A stretch of DNA of 64,000 nt from Entrophospora sp. SA101. Taxonomy: Eukaryota > Glomeromycota > Glomeromycetes > Entrophosporales > Entrophosporaceae. The notes under the pieces are model-generated. The model did no database searches. It was given only the letters and a program-made list of their open reading frames with translations, and had not been told where the DNA came from. The stretch lies in contig CAUDNR010000891.1 in assembly GCA_958430865.1 (NCBI GenBank), positions 45,535 through 109,534 of the forward strand. The letters are read 5' to 3'. Below are positions 17,627 to 64,000 of the stretch, in pieces (within the stretch, counting starts at the first letter, position 1; the number at the start of each line of letters is the position of its first letter). A program made the translations under genes and the position numbers.

Positions 17627-17647
17627 TGACTATGCGAGTGTATGTGG

Positions 17648-17726
17648 TTGGGTGTTGGGTGTTGGGTGTTGGGTGTTGGGTGTTGGGTGTTGGGTGTTGG
17701 GTGTTGGGTGTTGGGTGTTGGGTGTT
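17648..17726. repeat. TTGGGTG heptamer minisatellite
   Basis: About 11 uninterrupted copies of a 7-bp unit (TTGGGTG) start 22 bp upstream of the Cue2-like start codon. The tract is strongly G-rich on the plus strand, in contrast to the AT-rich surroundings. Confidence 0.95.
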
Positions 17727-42283: not shown

Positions 42284-42955
42284 GTGTAAAAATAACTGAT
42301 GGTTAGATATAAAATATTCAAAGCTCGTCACAATCTATTCTGAAATTCAATGCCGTCCTCATTTTCTATTCTGAAAATTCAATGCCATCCTCATTTGAAA
42401 ATGAAGACTCTTATAAAAATACCTCAATTTCTGGAATTCTTGAATGATTTAAAATTCCACTGTAACGTAGAAAAATAGGCTGTGTTCTTGTGTAGAAATA
42501 ACTTATGGTTACCTATAAAATATTCAAGGATCGTCACAATCTATTCTGAAAATTCAACGCCGTTATTGATTTATGGATGAAAGCTCCTATTAAAAGTATC
42601 TCAATTTCTGGAATTCTTGAATGATTTAAAATTTCACAGTAACGTAGAAAGATAGGCTGTGTTCTTGTATGGAAATAACTGATGGTTACCTATAAAATAT
42701 CCAAGAATCGTCACAATCTATTCTGAAAATTCAACGTCGTTATTGATTTATGGATGAAAGCTCCTAATAAAAGTATCTCAATTTCTGGAATTCTTGAATG
42801 ATTTAAAATTCCACAGTAACGTAGAAAGATAGGCTGTGTTCTTGTATGGAAATAACTTATGGTTACCTATAAAATATTCAAGTATCGTCACAATCTATTC
42901 TGAAAATTCAACGCTGTTCTTGATTTATGGATGAAAGCTCCTATTAAAAGTTTCG
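42284..42955. repeat. 177-bp tandem array, 3.6 copies
   Basis: Copies at 42284-42489 (206 bp, with an internal duplication of ATTCTGAAAATTCAATGCC), 42490-42666, 42667-42843 and a partial copy from 42844. The two complete central copies are each exactly 177 bp. Each contains ACTTATGGTTACCTATAAAA, TCGTCACAATCTATTCTGAA and TTCTGGAATTCTTGAATG. No open frame spans the units. Confidence 0.95.
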
Positions 42956-50337: not shown

Positions 50338-50597
50338 ATATGGGGTCTGTACTAGGAAAATCAAGCTTCCAGCTATTTTTTTTTTTTTTTGTCTTTTTAC
50401 TCAATAATAATCTCTAATAAAGGATTTACAATTGGTGAAAAAATTGGACCCTATTTGCATAGTAGAAAAATGAGATACAAGGCTTGTAATATTTTCTTTG
50501 TATATTAAAAACATATGTGTAACCAAATTTATAAGGGTTGTTACCAAAAATAGATTTTTTGTCTGGAAGGTCGATTTTCCTAGTACAGACCCCATAT
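50338..50597. mobile_element. 260-bp MITE truncating the Helitron ORF
   Basis: Left TATGGGGTCTGTACTAGGAA and its inverse at the right, with CCAGC/GTCTGG inside. A related end (CTGTTCTAGGAAAA) stands near 44769-44783 just before the second gap. The right end replaces the 3' part of the Helitron frame. Confidence 0.8.
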
Positions 50598-54650: not shown

Positions 54651-54842
54651 TATGATCAATGCATACACACTAATTATTTATCCTATTGGTTTTTTTTTTG
54701 GTAGGACAGACGTGAATTGATTTTTTTTTTCTTGGAAAAACAATTTATTTTTTGACAGAGTCCAAAATGACAAAACGCAAACGTTGTTGTTTGGTTTGGT
54801 TTGGGTCTCCTAAAGAAAACATGTAATAACTAACCAGAGGTA
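54651..54842 (+). repeat. dispersed repeat, copy 2
   Basis: Direct copy of 41117-41312; see that entry. Confidence 0.85.
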
Positions 54843-55236
54843 TTTTTTTTTATTTGTATGGTGTGGGACCTCTTAAACCACCAATTTTGCATGTGATTTT
54901 TAAAAGAATAGAAGTTCATTTCTGTATATTATTTTTAAAAAAATAGCTCTGTTATGACATAGATTAGGACCCAAGCTTTAATGTGACAGAGAGTTTTTTT
55001 CAAAATATTGGTGGGTTGTTGAGTACTATTCCTTTTTGTACATGTATTTTACTATGTTCACGAGGAATTTGGCCGCTTAAATTTGGGCAGAAATTATGAC
55101 ATCTGCTGATCCTTTTTTTAAATTCTGGTCAGTTAAAAAATCGTGTAACAGTAACATTAACGCGTCAATATTTTTTATTTACTCAAATATTCATTCCAAT
55201 AAATTTACATATATTGTCTTTAAGTATTGATTAAAT

Positions 55237-55416
55237 ATGCCACCAAAAAAAAGAAATTCCCAGATTAAAACAGCTAGACTTTCAAAAAAATTAAAAAATG
55301 AAAATAAACCTAATAATTTATTTGTTCAAAACACTCTCTTGCATGAACAACCTTTTGATTTTGTGTCAGAAACTGATGATGATAAAACTATTTATGAATC
55401 AGATCAAGTGGTATAA
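55237..55416 (+). pseudogene. N-terminal fragment of a basic transposon-type protein
   Basis: MPPKKRNSQIKTARLSKKLK then an acidic stretch ending SDQVV and a stop inside a palindrome. The Pro-Lys-rich start resembles the beginnings of many transposon ORFs in these fungi. Nothing of the rest is present. Confidence 0.4.
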
Positions 55417-55449
55417 TTATAGTCTGTACAGACTATAATTATACCACTT
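55406..55449. repeat. perfect 44-bp palindrome
   Basis: The arm AAGTGGTATAATTATAGTCT is followed by GT|AC and its exact inverse. It lies 7 bp left of the hAT target duplication. Confidence 0.98.
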
Positions 55450-55946
55450 ATTTCGGACTATAACCAGGGCTGGCTGCGTAACCTCAAGGTTTAGTCAACA
55501 TGACTTGACTAAAAGCGTTAAGTCAAGTTTAGTTTTTTTCATGCAATTTGACGTAATGACTTAACTTTAGTCACTGACTTAACTTTAGCCACTTGACTTA
55601 ACTTTAGTCACTTGACTTAACTTTAGTCACTTGACTTAACTTTAGTCACTTGACTTAAATTTAGCCATTGACTTAACTTTAGTCACTTGACTTAAGTCTG
55701 GCATAAAGGGGTTAAAATCCTAATTAGTAATGATTGACTTGACTTAATAATAATTATTATATAAATATTAATGACTAAATAGTTTAGTCAGTTTAGCCAA
55801 ATGCTCACGCTCATTTAAACTCTTTACTTCTCCATACTTCTCAATGTTATATTTACATCATTATATATTCCATTGAATATATAACAACAACTTTTATTTT
55901 TTTACAAATTAATAAAATTAATAAAAACTATAACATTTACATTCAC

Positions 55947-55953
55947 ATATATA

Positions 55954-55984
<31 letters not shown>
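55947..55984. repeat. TA microsatellite
   Basis: Alternating TA tract inside the hAT 5' region. Confidence 0.9.
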
Positions 55985-56224
55985 CGAATATCATTATCAT
56001 TACCATCTCAAAATCATCATAGTGGATTTTTTTACATCATTGTTATCAGTAGCAACAGTAGTATTAGTATTAGTAGTAGCAGCAGCAATAAAAAAATTCT
56101 TATTAAAAAACTATGGCATTTTATAATGTGTAGGTATTATAATAAATAAATAATAAACTCATATTAACTAATATTAATATAAATATAAATAAACTTATTT
56201 ACATAAGTTTTCATTGTTTTAGAG

Positions 56225-58613
56225 ATGATGATATAGGTGTAAATATTGAACATCCTATTAATTTAGTTGAAGATACTACTACTACTACTACAAATATAAT
56301 TAGAGGTGGACGACCTTCTTCAGATGTATGGCAATATTTTGAAAAAAATACATCTAAATCAAAAGGTCACTATACTGCAAAATGTAGATATTGCTTGAAA
56401 TTTTGGAGAAGAGGAATTCCAGATAAATTAGAAGCACATCTTGCACTTAAATGTGAAAAAGTTGATAGAGAAATTTCTCAAATATATTTAAAAAAACTTG
56501 CAACTAAAAATTCAGTATCAGATGTTGAGTCTGAAGATAAAATGTCAATAAGTACAGCAACAAATTCAAGGAATTCCTCTAGCTCTAAAAAAAAAAGGAA
56601 AACCAATAATAATTTACATTCATATTATGAAAATACTAATTGCAATATTGAACAAAAACAAAAATTAGATCAGGCCTTGTTACGTGCATTTGTTGTATGT
56701 GGGATACCTTGGAATGTTGTATCTAACCCATTTTTTATGGATTTTATGAAGTTGGCTAAACCTGGATATGATCCAGCTACACGTAAAGAATTATCAGGTC
56801 AACTTCTTAATAAACTTGTAAAAAGTGAAAGAAATATGACGTTGGGTAACGAAAATATATAATTTTTTATTAATTTATTTGTAAATTTCAAAATTTTTCT
56901 GTTAATATTATTTATTAATAATAGCCCTTGATGGTTGGACAACCCCGTCTGGTGGAGTATTGTATAGTTTTGTAATCCTCACACAAAGCAAAGAAGAATA
57001 TTTATTCAAATTAAAAAATTATAGTATAGTGTCACAAACAGCTGATTTTTTGACTTCTGAAATCAAATCAATTTTAGAAGAAATTGGTCCTAACAATTTC
57101 TGTGGTTTGGTGACTGATCATGCATCCAACATCAGAGGTGCAAGAAAAAATATCTGCAATGCATTTCCACATATTTTCAACATTAGGTGCATTGCACATA
57201 CAATTAACTTGATTGCTACTGATATGGCGAAAAATGAATTTGTGGCTGAAATAATTTCAAAAGTTGGAAAATTGGTGAGTTTTTTTAAAAAATCCCACAT
57301 TGGAAATGCATTGCTCCATGAAGGTCTGAAATCAATGAATATATCTGGTGGCTTTCTTGTGTCATATTCCAAGATACGCTGGGGGTCATTGTTTGATACA
57401 ACAAATTCTGTCTTAATATCCCAACCAGTTTTTGCAAAGGTATTTTATCTTATTTTATCTTATCTTATTTTATTTACTTAATTTATAAACAATAACTCAT
57501 AATTATTATTAAAAAAAGATTCTTGAGGAAAATAGGAGTGTGGTTACAAATAGAGATGTTGCAGCATTAATGTCTAATCAAGGATTTTTTTATGATGTAC
57601 GAATTATTTCACAAATTTTTAAACCAATCAAACAAATCATTCATTGCCTTGAACGAAGAAGTGCCAATCTTTCAGATTGTTTTTTAGGATTTGTGTATCT
57701 TGCTTTGGCAATTAAACAATTACCAAACAATATGAATTTACAATCAGAAATTATTAAAATTTTCAACTCCAGATTTAACTCTTTTGAAATTGACCTTTAT
57801 CTGCTTGCTTACTTTTTGCATCCAAAACATAAAGGTAATATTATCTATAAAATATATTATATTTATAATGATTTAAATAATGATAATTAATCACCCTATA
57901 TATTTATAGGGTATGCCATGAAACAAGGAAATTTTCGTCGAATATGTGATATTGCTGTTTCATATGTTTCAAGGTTAGGTTTTACAGATATAGCTGTTAG
58001 CCAACTCATCATGCAAATGCGTTCATTTAAGGATGGTTTATACCCTTATGATTTTATATTTAATGTTAACGATCCTATTACATGGTGGACAACAATTGAA
58101 GATAATCACAATTATTTGCAACAACTTGCAATTAAATTGTTTTCAATAGTACCTTCTCAGGCAAGTTGTGAGAGAACATTCTCAATACTTAAATGGATCC
58201 ATGGGTTGAATAGAAACTCTTTGTCAAGTGACAACTTGGAATCCATGGCAATAATCCGATCATATCTTATCTCAGATATTGAGAAAACCATGTTTTATGT
58301 ACCAAAAAAAAATAATGATATTGATTTTTCTAGTGTGGCTAACTCAGAAACAGTCATCGATGGATTGGATCTCGAAGAAGAGGAATCATTTACATCACTT
58401 GAATTAGAAGAGGATCTATCTGATGTTTCTGATAACAACATTGATAATAATAATTTATCAATTGAATCAATAATTGATTTATCAGTATTAATTTCAGGCA
58501 GTGATATTTCAGCCCAAGATATAACTAGTGATATAACTAGTCCATTTGCAGAAGGTATAACTGATTATAATCCTCATGAATTAGTTGCTAATTTGGTGAC
58601 AGAGGATGAATAA
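56225..58613 (+). CDS. hAT transposase (BED finger, hATC)
   Basis: Exons about 56225-56845, 56925-57439, 57519-57834 and 57910-58613 join in one frame without a stop. A BED zinc finger comes first: GGRPSSDVWQYFEK, CRYCLKFWRRG, LEAHLALKC. The RNase H-like core has LDGWTTPSGG (first Asp), CGLVTDHASNIRGA (second Asp) and FNIRCIAHTINLIATD. The C-terminal dimerisation region holds ITWWTTIEDNH, LFSIVPSQASCERTFSILK (the catalytic Glu) and LSSDNLESMAIIRSYL, followed by an acidic tail. All catalytic positions are present. The initiating ATG is not settled: the first exon appears to begin at an AG acceptor at 56222, and the only internal early Met (56395) would cut the BED finger. Confidence 0.88.
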
Positions 58614-58985
58614 ATTTAAATCCGACTTAATATTGACAAGTTGTTGTTTTTAATTTTTTTAATTGTAATATAATGGTATAGTCTTTTTTAATATTATTAA
58701 TTGGAGTTATATTTTGTTTTGTAATACAAATTTTCAATTTATAATAAAAACACATTTATTATCATTATTATCATTACATTATAATTAAAAATGTAACGGG
58801 ATAAATAATCAAGACAATCATTACTATATTAGGGTTTTACACTTTCGTCAACTGACGAAACTTTAGTCACTAGTTTCGGTTTCGCCAAACGTGACTAAAC
58901 CGAAATTAAATTGACTAAAGTTTCGTCAAATTGAGTTAGAGTTACGCAGCCAGCCCTGACTATAACCCACCCGAAAATGACATGC

Positions 58986-59143
58986 GTTTTGCATTTGCCT
59001 CGTCATTCGAGTGACGAACGTTTTGCATTTGCCTCGTCATTCGAGTGACGTGTGTTTTGCGTTTGCCACGTCATTCGAGTGACGTATGTTTTGCGTTTGC
59101 CTCGTCATTCGAGTGACAAACGTTTTGCGTTTGCCTCGTCAAA
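58986..59143. repeat. 34-bp iteron-like array (A)
   Basis: Units begin with GTTTTGCRTTTGCC at 58986, 59020, 59054, 59088 and 59122, an exact 34-bp period. The first four end in CGTCATTCGAGTGAC, whose 14-mer GTCATTCGAGTGAC is a near-perfect dyad centred on TCGA; the fifth switches into array B after CGTCA. The array lies downstream of the primase-helicase gene. Confidence 0.95.
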
Positions 59144-59263
59144 GATGAGGCACGTAGTGCCGAATCGTTATCTATTATGTTATCTTAGAATGAGGCATGT
59201 AGTGCCGAATCGTTATCCTATTTGGTAACCCGAGGATGAGGCACGTAGTGCCGAATTGTTATC
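59144..59263. repeat. hairpin-bearing 45-bp array (B)
   Basis: Three units start at 59144, 59189 and 59235 with RATGAGGCAYGTAGTGCCGA then ATYGTTATC. Each contains GGCACGTAGTGCC, a 5-bp stem with a 3-base loop (one G-T change in the middle copy). Confidence 0.92.
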
Positions 59264-59319
59264 ATTACTTGGTAATACGTAAAAGCACAATTTTTTCTTA
59301 CCTCTTTCCTCATATTATT

Positions 59320-59690
59320 CTACCTTTGGGCATTACCAAAAGTTTGCTATATTTTTCGATTCTAGAACTCTTTCTCATATAATTAATGATTTCGAATACT
59401 TTGCTTTATGTTAAAAAATTGGATTATATTTTTGATAACTTTTGCGTATTACATTTTTTGCTTTACGTTAAAAAATTTGATCGCTTTTGTATATTATTTT
59501 TTTGATAACTTTTGCGTATTACCAAAAGCTTGCTATATTTTTCGATTCTAAAACTCTTTCTCATATAGTTACTGTCTTCGAGTACTTTTATATCGTGTCA
59601 AAAAATTAGATCACATTTTTGATAACTTTTGCGTATTACATTTTTGATAACTTTTGCGTATTACACTTTTGATAACTTTTGTATATGACT
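59320..59690. repeat. direct repeats with TTTTGATAACTTTTGCGTAT units (C)
   Basis: The block ATTACCAAAAG..TTGCTATATTTTTCGATTCT..AACTCTTTCTCATATA occurs at about 59331 and again at about 59518. TTTTGATAACTTTTGCGTAT occurs five times (59430-59680), the last copies in tandem with a 24-25 bp period. Confidence 0.85.
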
Positions 59691-59899
59691 GAATTGACAT
59701 AAAGTACTAAAATCATGTGGTACAAAAATGGTCATAGTTACCTATCCTATGATCTGAATTAATTTTCGATTTGAATTTTTTCCAGCATTTATTGTAAGAG
59801 GTGACAAAAATGGTCTTACCTGAGGTGAATAGTTAGTTAAATGTAGCAATATACTTTCTGTCAGAGGTATACATACTACTTAATTAAATTGTACAATAA

Positions 59900-62800
59900 T
59901 TACGCATATTCAATGAAAGCTAAAGATTTATTTTTCAGTTCTTTTTTATGCGGAGTAGTAGGAACTTTCATTTTAGCCTCAAAGTTTCGTTTATATTCCA
60001 AGAAAGTGACCTCATCCATACTCTCGCGCTCTTTTTTCCAGTAATTCTGGTTATCCCGCATTTCAAAAGCAATCTTAGTTCGCCATTGTTCTAACCTTTC
60101 CTGAGACTTTTGTTGTAAAAGAAGGATAAGATTGTCTATATCAGATTCATTTTTAATGAGAAATTCTGAAGATAGAGGAGTTAAGGATTCGGGTATTTTT
60201 TTCTCAACTATACTGGCTTTACTAATAGTAGTATCAACATGGCATCTATCTTGGGAAAGACCAGCAGATTGATTACGGGCTGGTATTTTCAAAGGTAAAT
60301 CTTTTTCATCAATTGCATTACTAGATGAGTCAGAAATTTTATGCTCAACATGTTCTGAAGTAATATTATTAATAATAGGTATAGAATCGAAAAGATCCTG
60401 AATCTCATCACTTACCTTTGGCTTATATGATGGAAGAACTGGAGCTATAGGGTAATATTCAGGATTATCTAACTTTCTAGTCATTACTTCTTCTTGATTA
60501 TCAAAACCATGACTATTATATGGTTTTTGGTTAATTTGATATGAATATTTCCAAATCTGTTGTCCTTTAGGTCCTACCAATTTTCGTTCACTTTTTATAG
60601 TATAACCACACCAATTACCAACAATTGCATTAATTGCCTTTATAGCTGATTTAAGATCTGGTATTTCTTTTGCACGAGACTTAAAGCCAAAGAGCAATAA
60701 GGATTGATTTCGAATTTCTATAAATTTTTCACAGGATTGTATGAATGCTTCTGATACAATATTGCCAGGAAGGATACGTTTATCATCTATACCAGTAAAG
60801 CCCAGTACTTGAAAGAGTTCTCTTATAACCTTCCAGTGATTTGCTGAATAAGTTTTACGCAAGTCCTCCGCTACTGATTTTTCAAAATTCTCTTCGGCTT
60901 TATAACAGGTGTCTTCCCATTGTGCGAGATCCTTAGCTTCCAATCCTTCTATTGCACTTTCTTCATCATGACCAAGCCTCCGAAGATGAGATAGACGTAA
61001 GAAATGTTTTTGAGGTTCGGGAGATCCAAAATGTTCCACAAATTTTTTATTACAAAGTTTATCCCAATCTTCGATGCTCATATCCATATCTTTACCGGTA
61101 TAGAGACTTCGCAAATAGAAACGTTTAAGTGCCATAGTATCTGGGATAGAGCGTTCTTGATCAAACTTAAGAATTTCGGCTTCTTCAGGGATGAGATTTC
61201 GGGAAGTTGCAACAGCACAAAAATCTGTTTCCTTGATAACTGATGCTTCAACCCTGACCTCATTGCGGACCCTTTTGCGATTCCCTATAACTTCTTGGCT
61301 CTCATCCATTTTTATAAGTTGAAGAGAAGCACCTGTACTGGCTATAAGACTGCATGATATCTCAATGAAATTTCTTTCAGATAGACGTTTTTGATGTTCG
61401 ACTTCAAGGAATGATGTTACAGCAGGAGATTGATCAAGTTTATATGAAACAATATTTTTATCCCATTCACGATGGCCCTTAATTGCTGTAGGTAGATCAG
61501 TAGGACGAGCACTTTCAAGTTCAGCACGAATATTTTCATGGCCTGGCAAACGAGAAAGTTCATTGGAATTTTTTTGATAATAGAGAGATAGTATACACTT
61601 TTTACAATCACGAATTCGAAACATCATTTGGATAAAGGCTTCAACATTAACTGGAGTTGCAATATTTGTAATGCCTATAACCGCATCAAAGTGATCAGTC
61701 TTTTCAAAAGATATGCCTGCTTCCACTGTACTCGTATAAGCTACACAATCAAGTTCACCCCAAGCAGTATTAATATCTAAAAAGTCTTTTTTTCATTGTT
61801 TTCCATCCATATCTCCATAATAGGCACTAGCTTTGAAAGATAATTTAGAAGCTTTTTCTACTAATGCTCGAGCCATATTAGAACTTGTTACAACAAATGC
61901 CACACGTTTGCCTTGTCTGAGAAATTCAAACCCAATTCGCATAGCTTCAGCCCCACTATTTGGGTTGTAAAGATACTCAACAGTCTTACCTATAAGTGGT
62001 TGGAATTTATTATCAATTACTCGGATAGCGGAGCTAGTGCCAAGGCACATATTTTCACCATGATAAGCCCTGAGAAATGTTAGTGTACTTTCATTTGCAA
62101 ATGCATCCATGGCTAAAACATGTTGAGCTGATTTTAACACATCACGCATTGCATTTTCAGATTCCCGCGCATTTGAACCGCTATTCATTTGACGTTGAAT
62201 TGCATTGACTTCATCTAAAATAGCTACAATCGGACGGGCTGAGAATTCTATACGAGAGAGACTCTCAACTTGAACTATGATAATATCCCACTTATCTACG
62301 GACAAGCTCTGTTCATCTTGATAATTACAGATTCTGAGTCTGGATAATTTAAGATCATTAATTTTACCCATTGATTCATTACTAAGAGTTTTTTGGTAAG
62401 AAATCCAGATGACGCAAGGCATATTAGCTTTATTCTTGGTTAAGGAATTGAGATATTTTCTCAGACCTTTTGTTTTTCCTGTCATCATAGGAGAGCGAAT
62501 CAAAGTTGTACTGGGTTCTTTGCACAAGAAATTGGGATAAGCTCCTGGGAAATCTTCCATTTCCTTTACATTAATAACTTCTCCAGATAATTCAGGAAGT
62601 GAACGTGGATTTAATACAGCTTTAGCAATTCTTTCATTTAATCCCAATTTAGGTTTCACTGTTGATTTAACTTTGTCTGATACCTTACCGAAACTCAGTC
62701 CCTTATGATCCGGCTTGTACTGTTTTTGGCGATAACATTTAAGTACAAAATCTCCATTTTTTCGAATAAATCCATAGAGTTGATCTTTATCATGTTTAAC

Positions 62801-63853
62801 ATCACATATAGGGCATTCTTTAACCAATTGTGCTTGAAAGTTAACAAACCCTTTCTCGATTCTTCCAATCTGGAGCCACCCATATTTTTCAATAACCATA
62901 TTAGCCCCTTTAACCAAGGCATTTTCATCGTCGATAGGTTGGAATTCTTGTTTTACTGGCTCTTCAGAAGAAAAGGTTCGTGGCCAGATTTCTGAATAAT
63001 TTTCTTTAGGCTGAACCAAATAATCATCTAACTTTTGAAATCCAATTTTCACGGAAGAGATAGCAGGTCTTTTTATGCATCCTTCTTTTGCTGATCCAAG
63101 GAGCCGAAGACTAAAACGTGATTTGGGAAGGCCAACATCAATGAATTTCGAGTAAGGATTTCCTACTAATTCCATAACTTTTTCAGTAAAGCCTTTAAGT
63201 TCTCTATAATCTATAAATCGAGCATGAGGATAAATAATATGCCAACTACATTTCTCAGCATTCGATGAACTTGCTAATGCAAAAGAATTTAAGAAAGGTA
63301 TACATCCTGGAATAAGGCTTAATGTATCTGCACAAGCGACTAAAATTCTAGATATTAAATCTCCACGATTAATTTTTTCACTATCTAGAGAAGGAAGTTT
63401 AGGATCGGAAGGATCTGGTTTTTGCCTTGCATCAATATCGATAATTAAGCGGAGGGGTTGGTTCCCATCGATACATTCATGGGTATCAGGTATTCTATAA
63501 ACTTCACTAGGATGATCGATCACTGTTTAACCTTTTCCTGCTGTCCGAATTATATATTGAGAATGAATTTCTTCAGGTCGATATGCATCTAAAAGTGCAG
63601 TATCATTTTTATTAGTATGGCCATGACCCTTTATTGCAGAGCAATGACCCTTTGGGTCTAGGGTCGCCCCTTCGGGCCTGGATGCAAGCCAGTATTTATA
63701 AAATGTATGTTCTCTATGACCAGGTTTATAATCAAGATCCGTTAAACCCGTAAAAAGCCTTTTTGCTTCATTATATTCGGCCGATTTTTGATTTAGGCAC
63801 TGTTGTTGTAATGATTCGCATAACTGTTTTTTTGATTCACTAGATAAACTCAT
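59900..63853 (-). pseudogene. primase (PrimPol/UL52-like) fused to origin-binding-type SF2 helicase
   Basis: One minus-strand frame of 1317 codons starts MSLSSESKKQLCESLQQQ and is interrupted only by TAA at 63527-63529 (codon 109) and TGA at 61793-61795 (codon 687). The primase module (about 110-380) has DID (residues 139, 141), the SWH motif (203-205), FID (Asp 239) and a UL52-type zinc knuckle Cys347/Cys350/His354/Cys373. The helicase has Walker A MMTGKT (459-461 core), Walker B ILDEVN (547-548), FVVTSSNMARALVEKASK, and the arginine motif QMMFRIRDC (746, 748), as in origin-binding helicases. A C-terminal region of about 500 residues is unassigned, with Leu/Gln-rich helices at the end. Introns are absent, unlike its neighbours. 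It may be a mobile-element or virus-derived replication gene. With the two stops it should not make a full product unless these are sequence errors or read through. Confidence 0.8.
63640..63700. repeat. GC-richer in-frame insert
   Basis: A short GC-richer segment (GACCCTTTGGGTCTAGGGTC plus CCCCTTCGGG) with two small inverted repeats lies in frame in the N-terminal part of the primase-helicase gene and translates as SRPEGATLDPKGHCSA. It looks like a small mobile or expanding repeat tolerated in coding sequence. Confidence 0.5.
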
Positions 63854-64000
63854 TTATTGATTTGTATATATGCGTTGTTTGATCTGACAAAAAGTATATG
63901 TAGTATTATTTTGAAACTATATAATCGATAGATAAATCTTTAAAATAAAATTAATTATTCCAAAAATTTGATTGAAGTTTATTATATATACTTATGATGA
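63854..64000. other. upstream of the primase-helicase gene
   Basis: 147 bp of AT-rich sequence; any promoter or element terminus lies here or beyond the window. Confidence 0.4.

Follow-up and report, generated by a model that had tools for sequence, protein, structure and literature searches.

We analysed a window of 64,000 nucleotides from Entrophospora sp. SA101 (Glomeromycota; GenBank assembly GCA_958430865.1, contig CAUDNR010000891.1, positions 45,535 to 109,534). The window covers the right-hand portion of one decayed copy of a mobile DNA element: a primase-helicase gene, three repeat arrays and a terminal palindrome. The element is assigned to no named family and is classed here as a virus-like linear replicon or transposon. 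In the best explanation available, with a probability of about 0.5, it is such a linear replicon or transposon, having palindromic termini like those of asfarviruses and poxviruses and its own primase-helicase. A preliminary description of positions 58986-63853 had proposed an undescribed replicative element, and this is still the best reading, the element having its own terminus beside many different flanks. Among the open-licence PubMed Central (PMC) papers listed by literature searches, none describes it in its title or abstract opening. Contigs of the assembly are given below by C numbers and loci by L numbers.

The right terminus of the element is a perfect palindrome of 44 bp (55406-55449) with a 42-bp core, AGTGG...CCACT, at 55407-55448. 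This was the only palindrome found in the window at the settings used, i.e. arms of at least 16, a loop of at most 6, one mismatch and a G+C content above 15%. The target DNA flanking it (54841-55405) lies within a repeated gene-like sequence, and two empty copies of this sequence, in C1944 (99%) and C1617 (97%), match the flank and then continue without the element. The window diverges from both empty sites after base 55406, which it has in common with them; this is one base into the 44-bp palindrome and directly before the 42-bp core. For another copy, in C1626, the target is a Tc5/pogo-like gene (HTH_Tnp_Tc5, E 1.4e-4); empty relatives of this gene in C1407, C1466, C149 and C183 (84%) match from the first base past the palindrome. 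Host DNA starts at the outer edge of the palindrome. As empty sites exist for two copies, the copies have been inserted in the genome and have a defined terminus.

The preliminary description had set the boundary of the element at 58986. That position is internal, and the terminus beyond it was hidden because a hAT transposon (55465-58958, plus strand) splits the end of the element from the first array. The transposon is a later insertion, foreign to the element, and was recognised by its terminal inverted repeats (CAGGGCTGGCTGCGTAAC), its DUF659 and hAT dimerisation domains and an 8-bp target duplication, ACTATAAC. The first copy of the duplication (55457-55464) belongs to the segment of element end between the palindrome and the hAT (55450-55464), the second copy (58959-58966) to the segment where the element end continues past it (58959-58984). 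The hAT has a subterminal TGACTTAACTTTAGTCACT array, and its coding sequence is found in four open reading frame (ORF) pieces, owing to introns or decay. Since both lie within the hAT ends, this array (55557-55695) and further repeats (58840-58935) were rejected as repeats of the element.

The arrangement was followed in 24 clusters of array DNA (L031-L060, window included). These are not all independent: C136 and C1229 share a flank, as do C48 and C543, and four of the clusters are located on C1348. In 19 of the 24 the arrays are followed by a palindrome, which is exact in 16 clusters, has one central base in C1361 and has one mismatched pair in C1585 and C1923. The remaining five comprise a partial palindrome (C1489), runs of N (C1748, C1924), a contig end (C861) and a cluster with no palindrome (C1761). 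The palindromes vary in sequence by subfamily and range from 32 to 76 bp, all beginning with AGT and ending with ACT, and the DNA beyond them differs between most loci.

Tandem-repeat search identified three arrays between this terminus and the gene. Array A (58985-59141) has 4.6 units of 34 bp with 91% match and a dyad, CGTCA-N6-TGACG, in each unit; array B (59144-59275) has 2.9 units of 45/46 bp with 82% match and a hairpin, GGCAC-TAC-GTGCC, in each unit; array C (59423-59681) consists of 25-bp direct repeats (TTTTTGATAACTTTTGCGTATTACA) in two stretches, 59423-59522 (62%) and 59613-59681 (97%). The dyads and hairpins were read by eye. All three components had been reported before, as a 34-bp array with dyads, an array of about 45 bp with hairpins and further direct repeats, and all are confirmed in the sequence.

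DNA of arrays A and B has at least 81 matches in the genome, in at least 40 clusters, and recurrence in so many clusters is more than chance. This count and that of the gene copies given below are lower bounds, as only the best candidates were scored. The middle part of the primase-helicase gene is found in the layout of the window, 2.36-3.33 kb from the array, in 9 of the 40 clusters (window included), and in another layout in two. A domain of about 90 amino acids at the tail of the protein (coded at 59903-60175) was followed as well: its coding sequence runs toward the array in 19 of the 24 clusters examined, at 381-767 bp from the first B unit, and is missing in C1365, C1489, C1842, C1761 and C1923. 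The 19 clusters with a tail domain and the 19 with a palindrome are not identical sets, and some loci are possibly duplicates. Matches at the array loci to the tail of the primase-helicase are at 75-100%, and the window can be aligned piecewise with four copies from the gene to array B. Arrays C, B and A are therefore an integral part of the element's end. The earlier picture of an initiator beside iterons holds in that a replication protein and the arrays form one recurrent unit, and fails in that the arrays are not free-standing origin iterons and lie inside a palindromic element end. A domain 58% identical to the tail domain (NESDI...YWKKDRESM...) was also observed in a neighbouring coiled-coil gene (L068 596-865, minus strand).

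The gene (59900-63853, minus strand) encodes an archaeo-eukaryotic primase (AEP) fused, at the N-terminal side, to a UL9-type origin-binding helicase. The copy in the window is broken and dead. Its first ORF piece (63527-63853) holds the N-terminus from the ATG and is terminated by an in-frame TAA (63527-63529). The second (61793-63526; ORF 63523-61793) holds the AEP primase core, the zinc cluster and the UL9-type helicase motifs and is terminated by an in-frame TGA (61793-61795). The third (59900-61792) holds the C-terminal part including the tail domain. The single intronless frame of the preliminary description is one frame indeed, which the two stop codons split into three ORFs.

The helicase assignment made earlier was borne out, as the middle ORF piece matches the Pfam family PF02399 (Herpes_ori_bp, E 3.4e-16) and a profile of 15 relatives matches solved UL9 origin-binding proteins in PDB (E 1.6e-11). 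For the primase part, a profile of 14 N-terminal domains from the Entrophospora genome was used. Its only solved relatives at E <= 1 were the AEP primases of the pox D5/OPG117 type, with a best E-value of 1.7e-4. The motifs DIDAR, CSWHI and FIDxGL...LRLLGSAK are conserved among the copies, and a zinc cluster, CPIC..H..C, is present. The primase had been called PrimPol/UL52-type with a zinc knuckle. The AEP primase is supported by the profile and the zinc cluster is there; UL52 was rejected as primase type, since none of the gene pieces and copies scanned matches the Pfam family PF03121. A search of the genome with PF03121 gave no match either, but its controls were silent too. The structure model of the primase domain was too poor for a fold search, with a predicted local distance difference test (pLDDT) score of 53.6.

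The genes of the element are widespread in Glomeromycotina. The primase-helicase has 160 relatives passing the search, and those named by organism among the 120 matches listed are all from Glomeromycotina. Five scans of viral contigs, resting on few short patterns, gave no relative. In the Entrophospora genome the middle gene piece has at least 79 matches, which merge to at least 57 clusters. Eight of the 79 cover at least 569 of 576 amino acids without a stop, in a frame of at least 1,162 amino acids. Seven of these (1,162-1,301 amino acids) are free of N and the eighth (C1296, 1,435 amino acids) spans N; the open copies in C813 and C1676 have equal scores and are possibly one locus. The ratio of nonsynonymous to synonymous substitution rates (dN/dS, NG86) has a median of 0.236 and a range of 0.168-0.456 for the primase-helicase (66 pairs from 12 copies). 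For a recombinase-like gene linked to it, described below, the median is 0.257 and the range 0.15-0.351 (7 copies, 16 of 21 pairs, five being left out for saturated dS). Both genes have therefore been kept functional during diversification of the family.

The two arms of the palindrome mostly change together. In an alignment of four 42-bp palindromes, 16 of the 21 pairs are invariant, four are changed on both sides, none is changed on one side and one contains an unpaired cell. Among 500 shuffles of the four rows, none reached the covariation score or the percentage paired, three gave at least as many pairs with two-sided change and 15 at least as many pair types. A pattern scan for another subfamily, allowing up to 2 mismatches, gave 19 palindromes and none in the reversed control. 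Seven of the 19 are exact to the pattern, and nine of the other 12 have paired changes, of three kinds, which keep the palindrome perfect. Compared by eye, 10 of the 19 have an array cluster no more than 700 bp away. Opening of a hairpin end at its base would give a palindrome with arms that co-vary between subfamilies; the main alternative is selection for a recombinase site.

Four contigs suggest what the opposite end may look like. In C616, a palindrome with one central base is located roughly 1 kb upstream of where the gene starts. Behind it come short tandem repeats and then arrays like A, B and C, all in inverted orientation compared with the end seen in the window. Repeats of the type TTTTGCGT.CTACC at this inverted end are, by eye, similar to those of array C. 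A palindrome and array in the same orientation as the C616 end occur in C640, about 2 kb before a distant member of the family (43% identical). C1348 has two facing ends over 10.1 kb (palindromes at 50413-50488 and 60452-60527), which are identical over 672+76 bp and have different interiors, and C783 has two identical ends about 7.9 kb apart. An opposite end made of inverted arrays and a palindrome, i.e. terminal inverted repeats, is supported by these contigs and not proven.

Two further genes are probably part of the element, which again is supported and not proven. They are found divergently upstream of the primase-helicase gene. A 94-amino-acid zinc protein is encoded beside 17 of the 29 other gene copies, the recombinase-like gene beside 15, and one or the other beside 22. 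The linkage queries were taken from C1626, one of the 29, and pairs such as L012/L013 and L015/L016 are possibly duplicates. In the window only 63854-64000 lies upstream of the gene, the right window edge being the contig end, so that the divergent zinc-protein and recombinase-like genes would here fall off the contig. In other genera, linkage was inferred from consecutive tags or same-sized contigs: Diversispora epigaea (Glove_495g14/g15, 406g20/g23), Gigaspora margarita (F8M41_023078/023079), G. rosea (5275_t/5276_t), Rhizophagus diaphanus (C1646_759822/759825) and R. irregularis (contigs of 2,006,788 and 32,370 bases). On this basis at least four genera have the recombinase-like gene linked to the helicase gene. 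Its closest named relatives, at 94-96% for partial matches, are proteins of Entrophospora sp. SA101 and E. candida. The protein keeps the motifs MRPAE, LRKIG, RHK and YYA/NYA, giving the order R...R...H...Y known from tyrosine recombinases, and one relative (P0176) bears the UniRef name 'Tyr recombinase domain-containing'. In a search for homologues of the protein 259 passed; its structure model, built from 15 aligned rows (pLDDT 50.2), was too poor for a fold search, and its putative identity as a recombinase is unproven.

The mechanism that we propose is as follows. The element would replicate as linear DNA: the UL9-type helicase would bind the dyads of the arrays, and DNA synthesis would be started by the primase. 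The terminal palindrome would fold back, either as a covalently closed hairpin end or as a concatemer junction of the pox/asfar type, and this would keep the arms alike. A recombinase or resolvase may then cut the base of the hairpin (AGT^...^ACT), giving free ends and integrated copies. Asfarvirus and poxvirus genomes have closed hairpin ends, with terminal tandem repeats next to them. In phage N15 an inverted repeat is processed to hairpin telomeres by TelN, which resembles tyrosine recombinases; the annotation of this linear plasmid-prophage shows both the inverted repeat (telRL) and the telomerase gene. N15 differs in being bacterial, and TelN has no profile similarity to the fungal recombinase-like protein. 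More tentatively, and with considerable doubt, these would be eukaryotic hairpin-telomere elements: linear closed replicons copied by the primase-UL9 protein, resolved by an unrecognised enzyme like a tyrosine recombinase and inserted throughout the genomes of arbuscular mycorrhizal fungi.

Several observations weigh against the proposed linear replicon. No hairpin, extrachromosomal form or activity has been observed, and no target duplication was measurable. At both C1348 and C783 the two outward flanks have the same sequence in inverted orientation (100% over about 390-917 bp), so that a target duplication read from these copies was rejected. In C1842 one flank with its end occurs twice, joined to two different interiors. 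The contigs near element ends are consequently unreliable, which weakens the evidence for inverted ends. Sequences with no relation to the element, too, can have equal-scoring hits in both orientations on a single contig (C2030, C533, C1465, C1550, C1211); such hits suggest large inverted duplications in the assembly, perhaps artefacts of amplification or assembly. A search for the left half of the target gave nothing for the C1626 copy (40 of 120 candidates scored) or for the window copy. Three of the 19 scanned palindromes are imperfect (C170, C45, C1861) and C845 and C1585 have a one-base asymmetry in common; the arms are thus not always re-symmetrised. The end in C1489 halts 9 bases into the palindrome and C1761 has an array without any palindrome.

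The same holds for the association of the parts. In 29 of the 40 array clusters there is no gene match within 6 kb, partly because of contig ends, N runs, truncated copies and diverged arrays. The preliminary description had regarded gene copies lacking the arrays as evidence against a common element, and in part this is what is seen, with 57 gene clusters, nine array clusters in window layout and the 29 without the gene. Seven of the 29 other gene copies have neither partner gene, some of these being truncated or at contig ends. Two relatives of the recombinase-like protein are auto-named 'highly derived d5-like helicase-primase' and one 'OraA/RecX'. The family had no recombinase match in the Pfam, PHROGs, NCBIfam and PDB profiles, and in comparisons with lambda Int, Cre, HP1 Int and TelN (hhalign, hmmsearch) it scored no better than controls. 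As a separate observation, the C1489 end (around 6.1-6.4 kb in L034), with 9 palindrome bases and then other DNA, may show opening or loss of an end.

Among the other explanations, a circular element moved by a tyrosine recombinase, like a Crypton or a Polinton-like virus, fares best and is still unlikely. The palindrome would then be a recombination site or replication terminator and not a telomere. Such an origin would account for the linked gene with its R...R...H...Y residue order and for the one relative named after a Tyr recombinase domain, yet no family or profile matches the enzyme. With a circular donor both junctions should have a core in common, and inspection by eye of the first bases of the right flanks showed no common sequence. 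Identical palindromes at both ends of one copy are also unlike the result of a single crossover, if the contigs are right. Cryptons and Starships resemble the element in the possible tyrosine recombinase of a fungal mobile element, and differ in that the element has terminal arrays and palindromes and no Pfam recombinase-family match. Polinton-like viruses with terminal inverted repeats, a primase-helicase and a tyrosine recombinase do exist: the account in PMC4642659 describes these viruses (PLV, PgVV, Tlr1) as linear DNA with long terminal inverted repeats and a primase-helicase, some having the recombinase. The fungal element, however, has a UL9-type superfamily 2 helicase rather than superfamily 3 or TVpol, palindromic termini and, in the parts read, no capsid genes.

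Somewhat less likely again are endogenised remnants of an asfar-like or other large DNA virus, in which gene and ends were scattered by the host and had no mobility of their own. Hairpin ends with terminal tandem repeats are known in such viruses. The fusion of a primase to a UL9-like superfamily 2 helicase is listed for asfarviruses and mimiviruses by Koonin and colleagues (PMC1594570, Table 3), and an endogenous asfar-like region of 1.5 Mb is reported from R. irregularis (PMC10640383). The fungal element has the same fusion of an AEP primase and a UL9-like helicase, but it is short (about 10 kb between the palindromes at C1348), has many genomic copies and contains no capsid or polymerase gene in the parts read. 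Remnants would hardly give one type of terminus beside many flanks, or precise empty sites. Neither do the five scans of viral contigs, within the sensitivity of short patterns, offer a viral relative, and D5 and the viral superfamily II helicase marker are given in PMC10640383 as undetected in five R. irregularis genomes. A genome search with the capsid family PF04451 had no match, with controls silent too.

A cut-and-paste transposon with terminal inverted repeats, whose subterminal arrays bind a transposase and whose primase-helicase is cargo, is improbable. It would explain the apparent inverted ends with subterminal repeats and the clean insertion, and DNA transposons are at hand in the hAT of the window and the Tc5/pogo-like gene flanking the C1626 copy. 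No DDE transposase domain was found in the element genes scanned, though; transposase-type matches were to the hAT, to the C1626 flank gene and, below the cut-off (E 0.0034), to the C1626 recombinase-like gene. The parts that recur and are under selection are the primase-helicase and recombinase-like genes. Helitrons share a hairpin near one end and replicative movement with the element, whose palindrome is terminal and loopless, and the element proteins scanned have no HUH Rep domain. An iteron plasmid, i.e. a free replicon with an initiator beside iterons, was rejected, the copies being inserted with a defined terminus and empty sites; no search aimed at a free form was made.

That arrays and palindromes form a satellite or a miniature inverted-repeat transposable element of their own, with the gene as an unrelated neighbour, as the preliminary description had considered for the arrays, would fit the low number of array clusters with the gene in window layout within 6 kb (9/40, with 29/40 lacking it) and the 9 of 19 palindromes of one subfamily without a listed array beside them, but was rejected and is disfavoured as highly improbable, given the tail domain upstream of the array, on the right strand and at 381-767 bp, in 19/24 clusters and the alignable DNA from gene to array B in the window and four copies.

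Other sequences were noted near copies of the element and in the window. Further out in C1365, a coiled-coil gene and a RING-type gene were read by eye. The stretch between them (L069 107-332) recurs in more than 20 places with 81-93% identity, as if several gene families had one promoter in common. A unit resembling F-box/leucine-rich-repeat genes by eye (L065 866-2507; L066 846-2357 and 4564-5511) is repeated at 89-91% beside element copies, and in L066 it interrupts a primase-helicase copy. The window itself also has a perfect GTTGGGT heptamer array of 11.4 copies (17647-17726) and a 177-bp tandem repeat of 3.3 copies with 91% matches (42365-42951).

According to PMC10640383, no infecting double-stranded DNA virus was known for fungi in 2023. 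PMC11075540 gives about two thirds of R. irregularis transposable elements as unclassified, and one annotation, described in PMC8647823, discarded 'helicase-primase' genes as transposon-related. For genes of this kind the element family provides an identity. If the reading with hairpin ends is true, a fungal transposable element would be connected with virus-like linear replicons that have closed ends.

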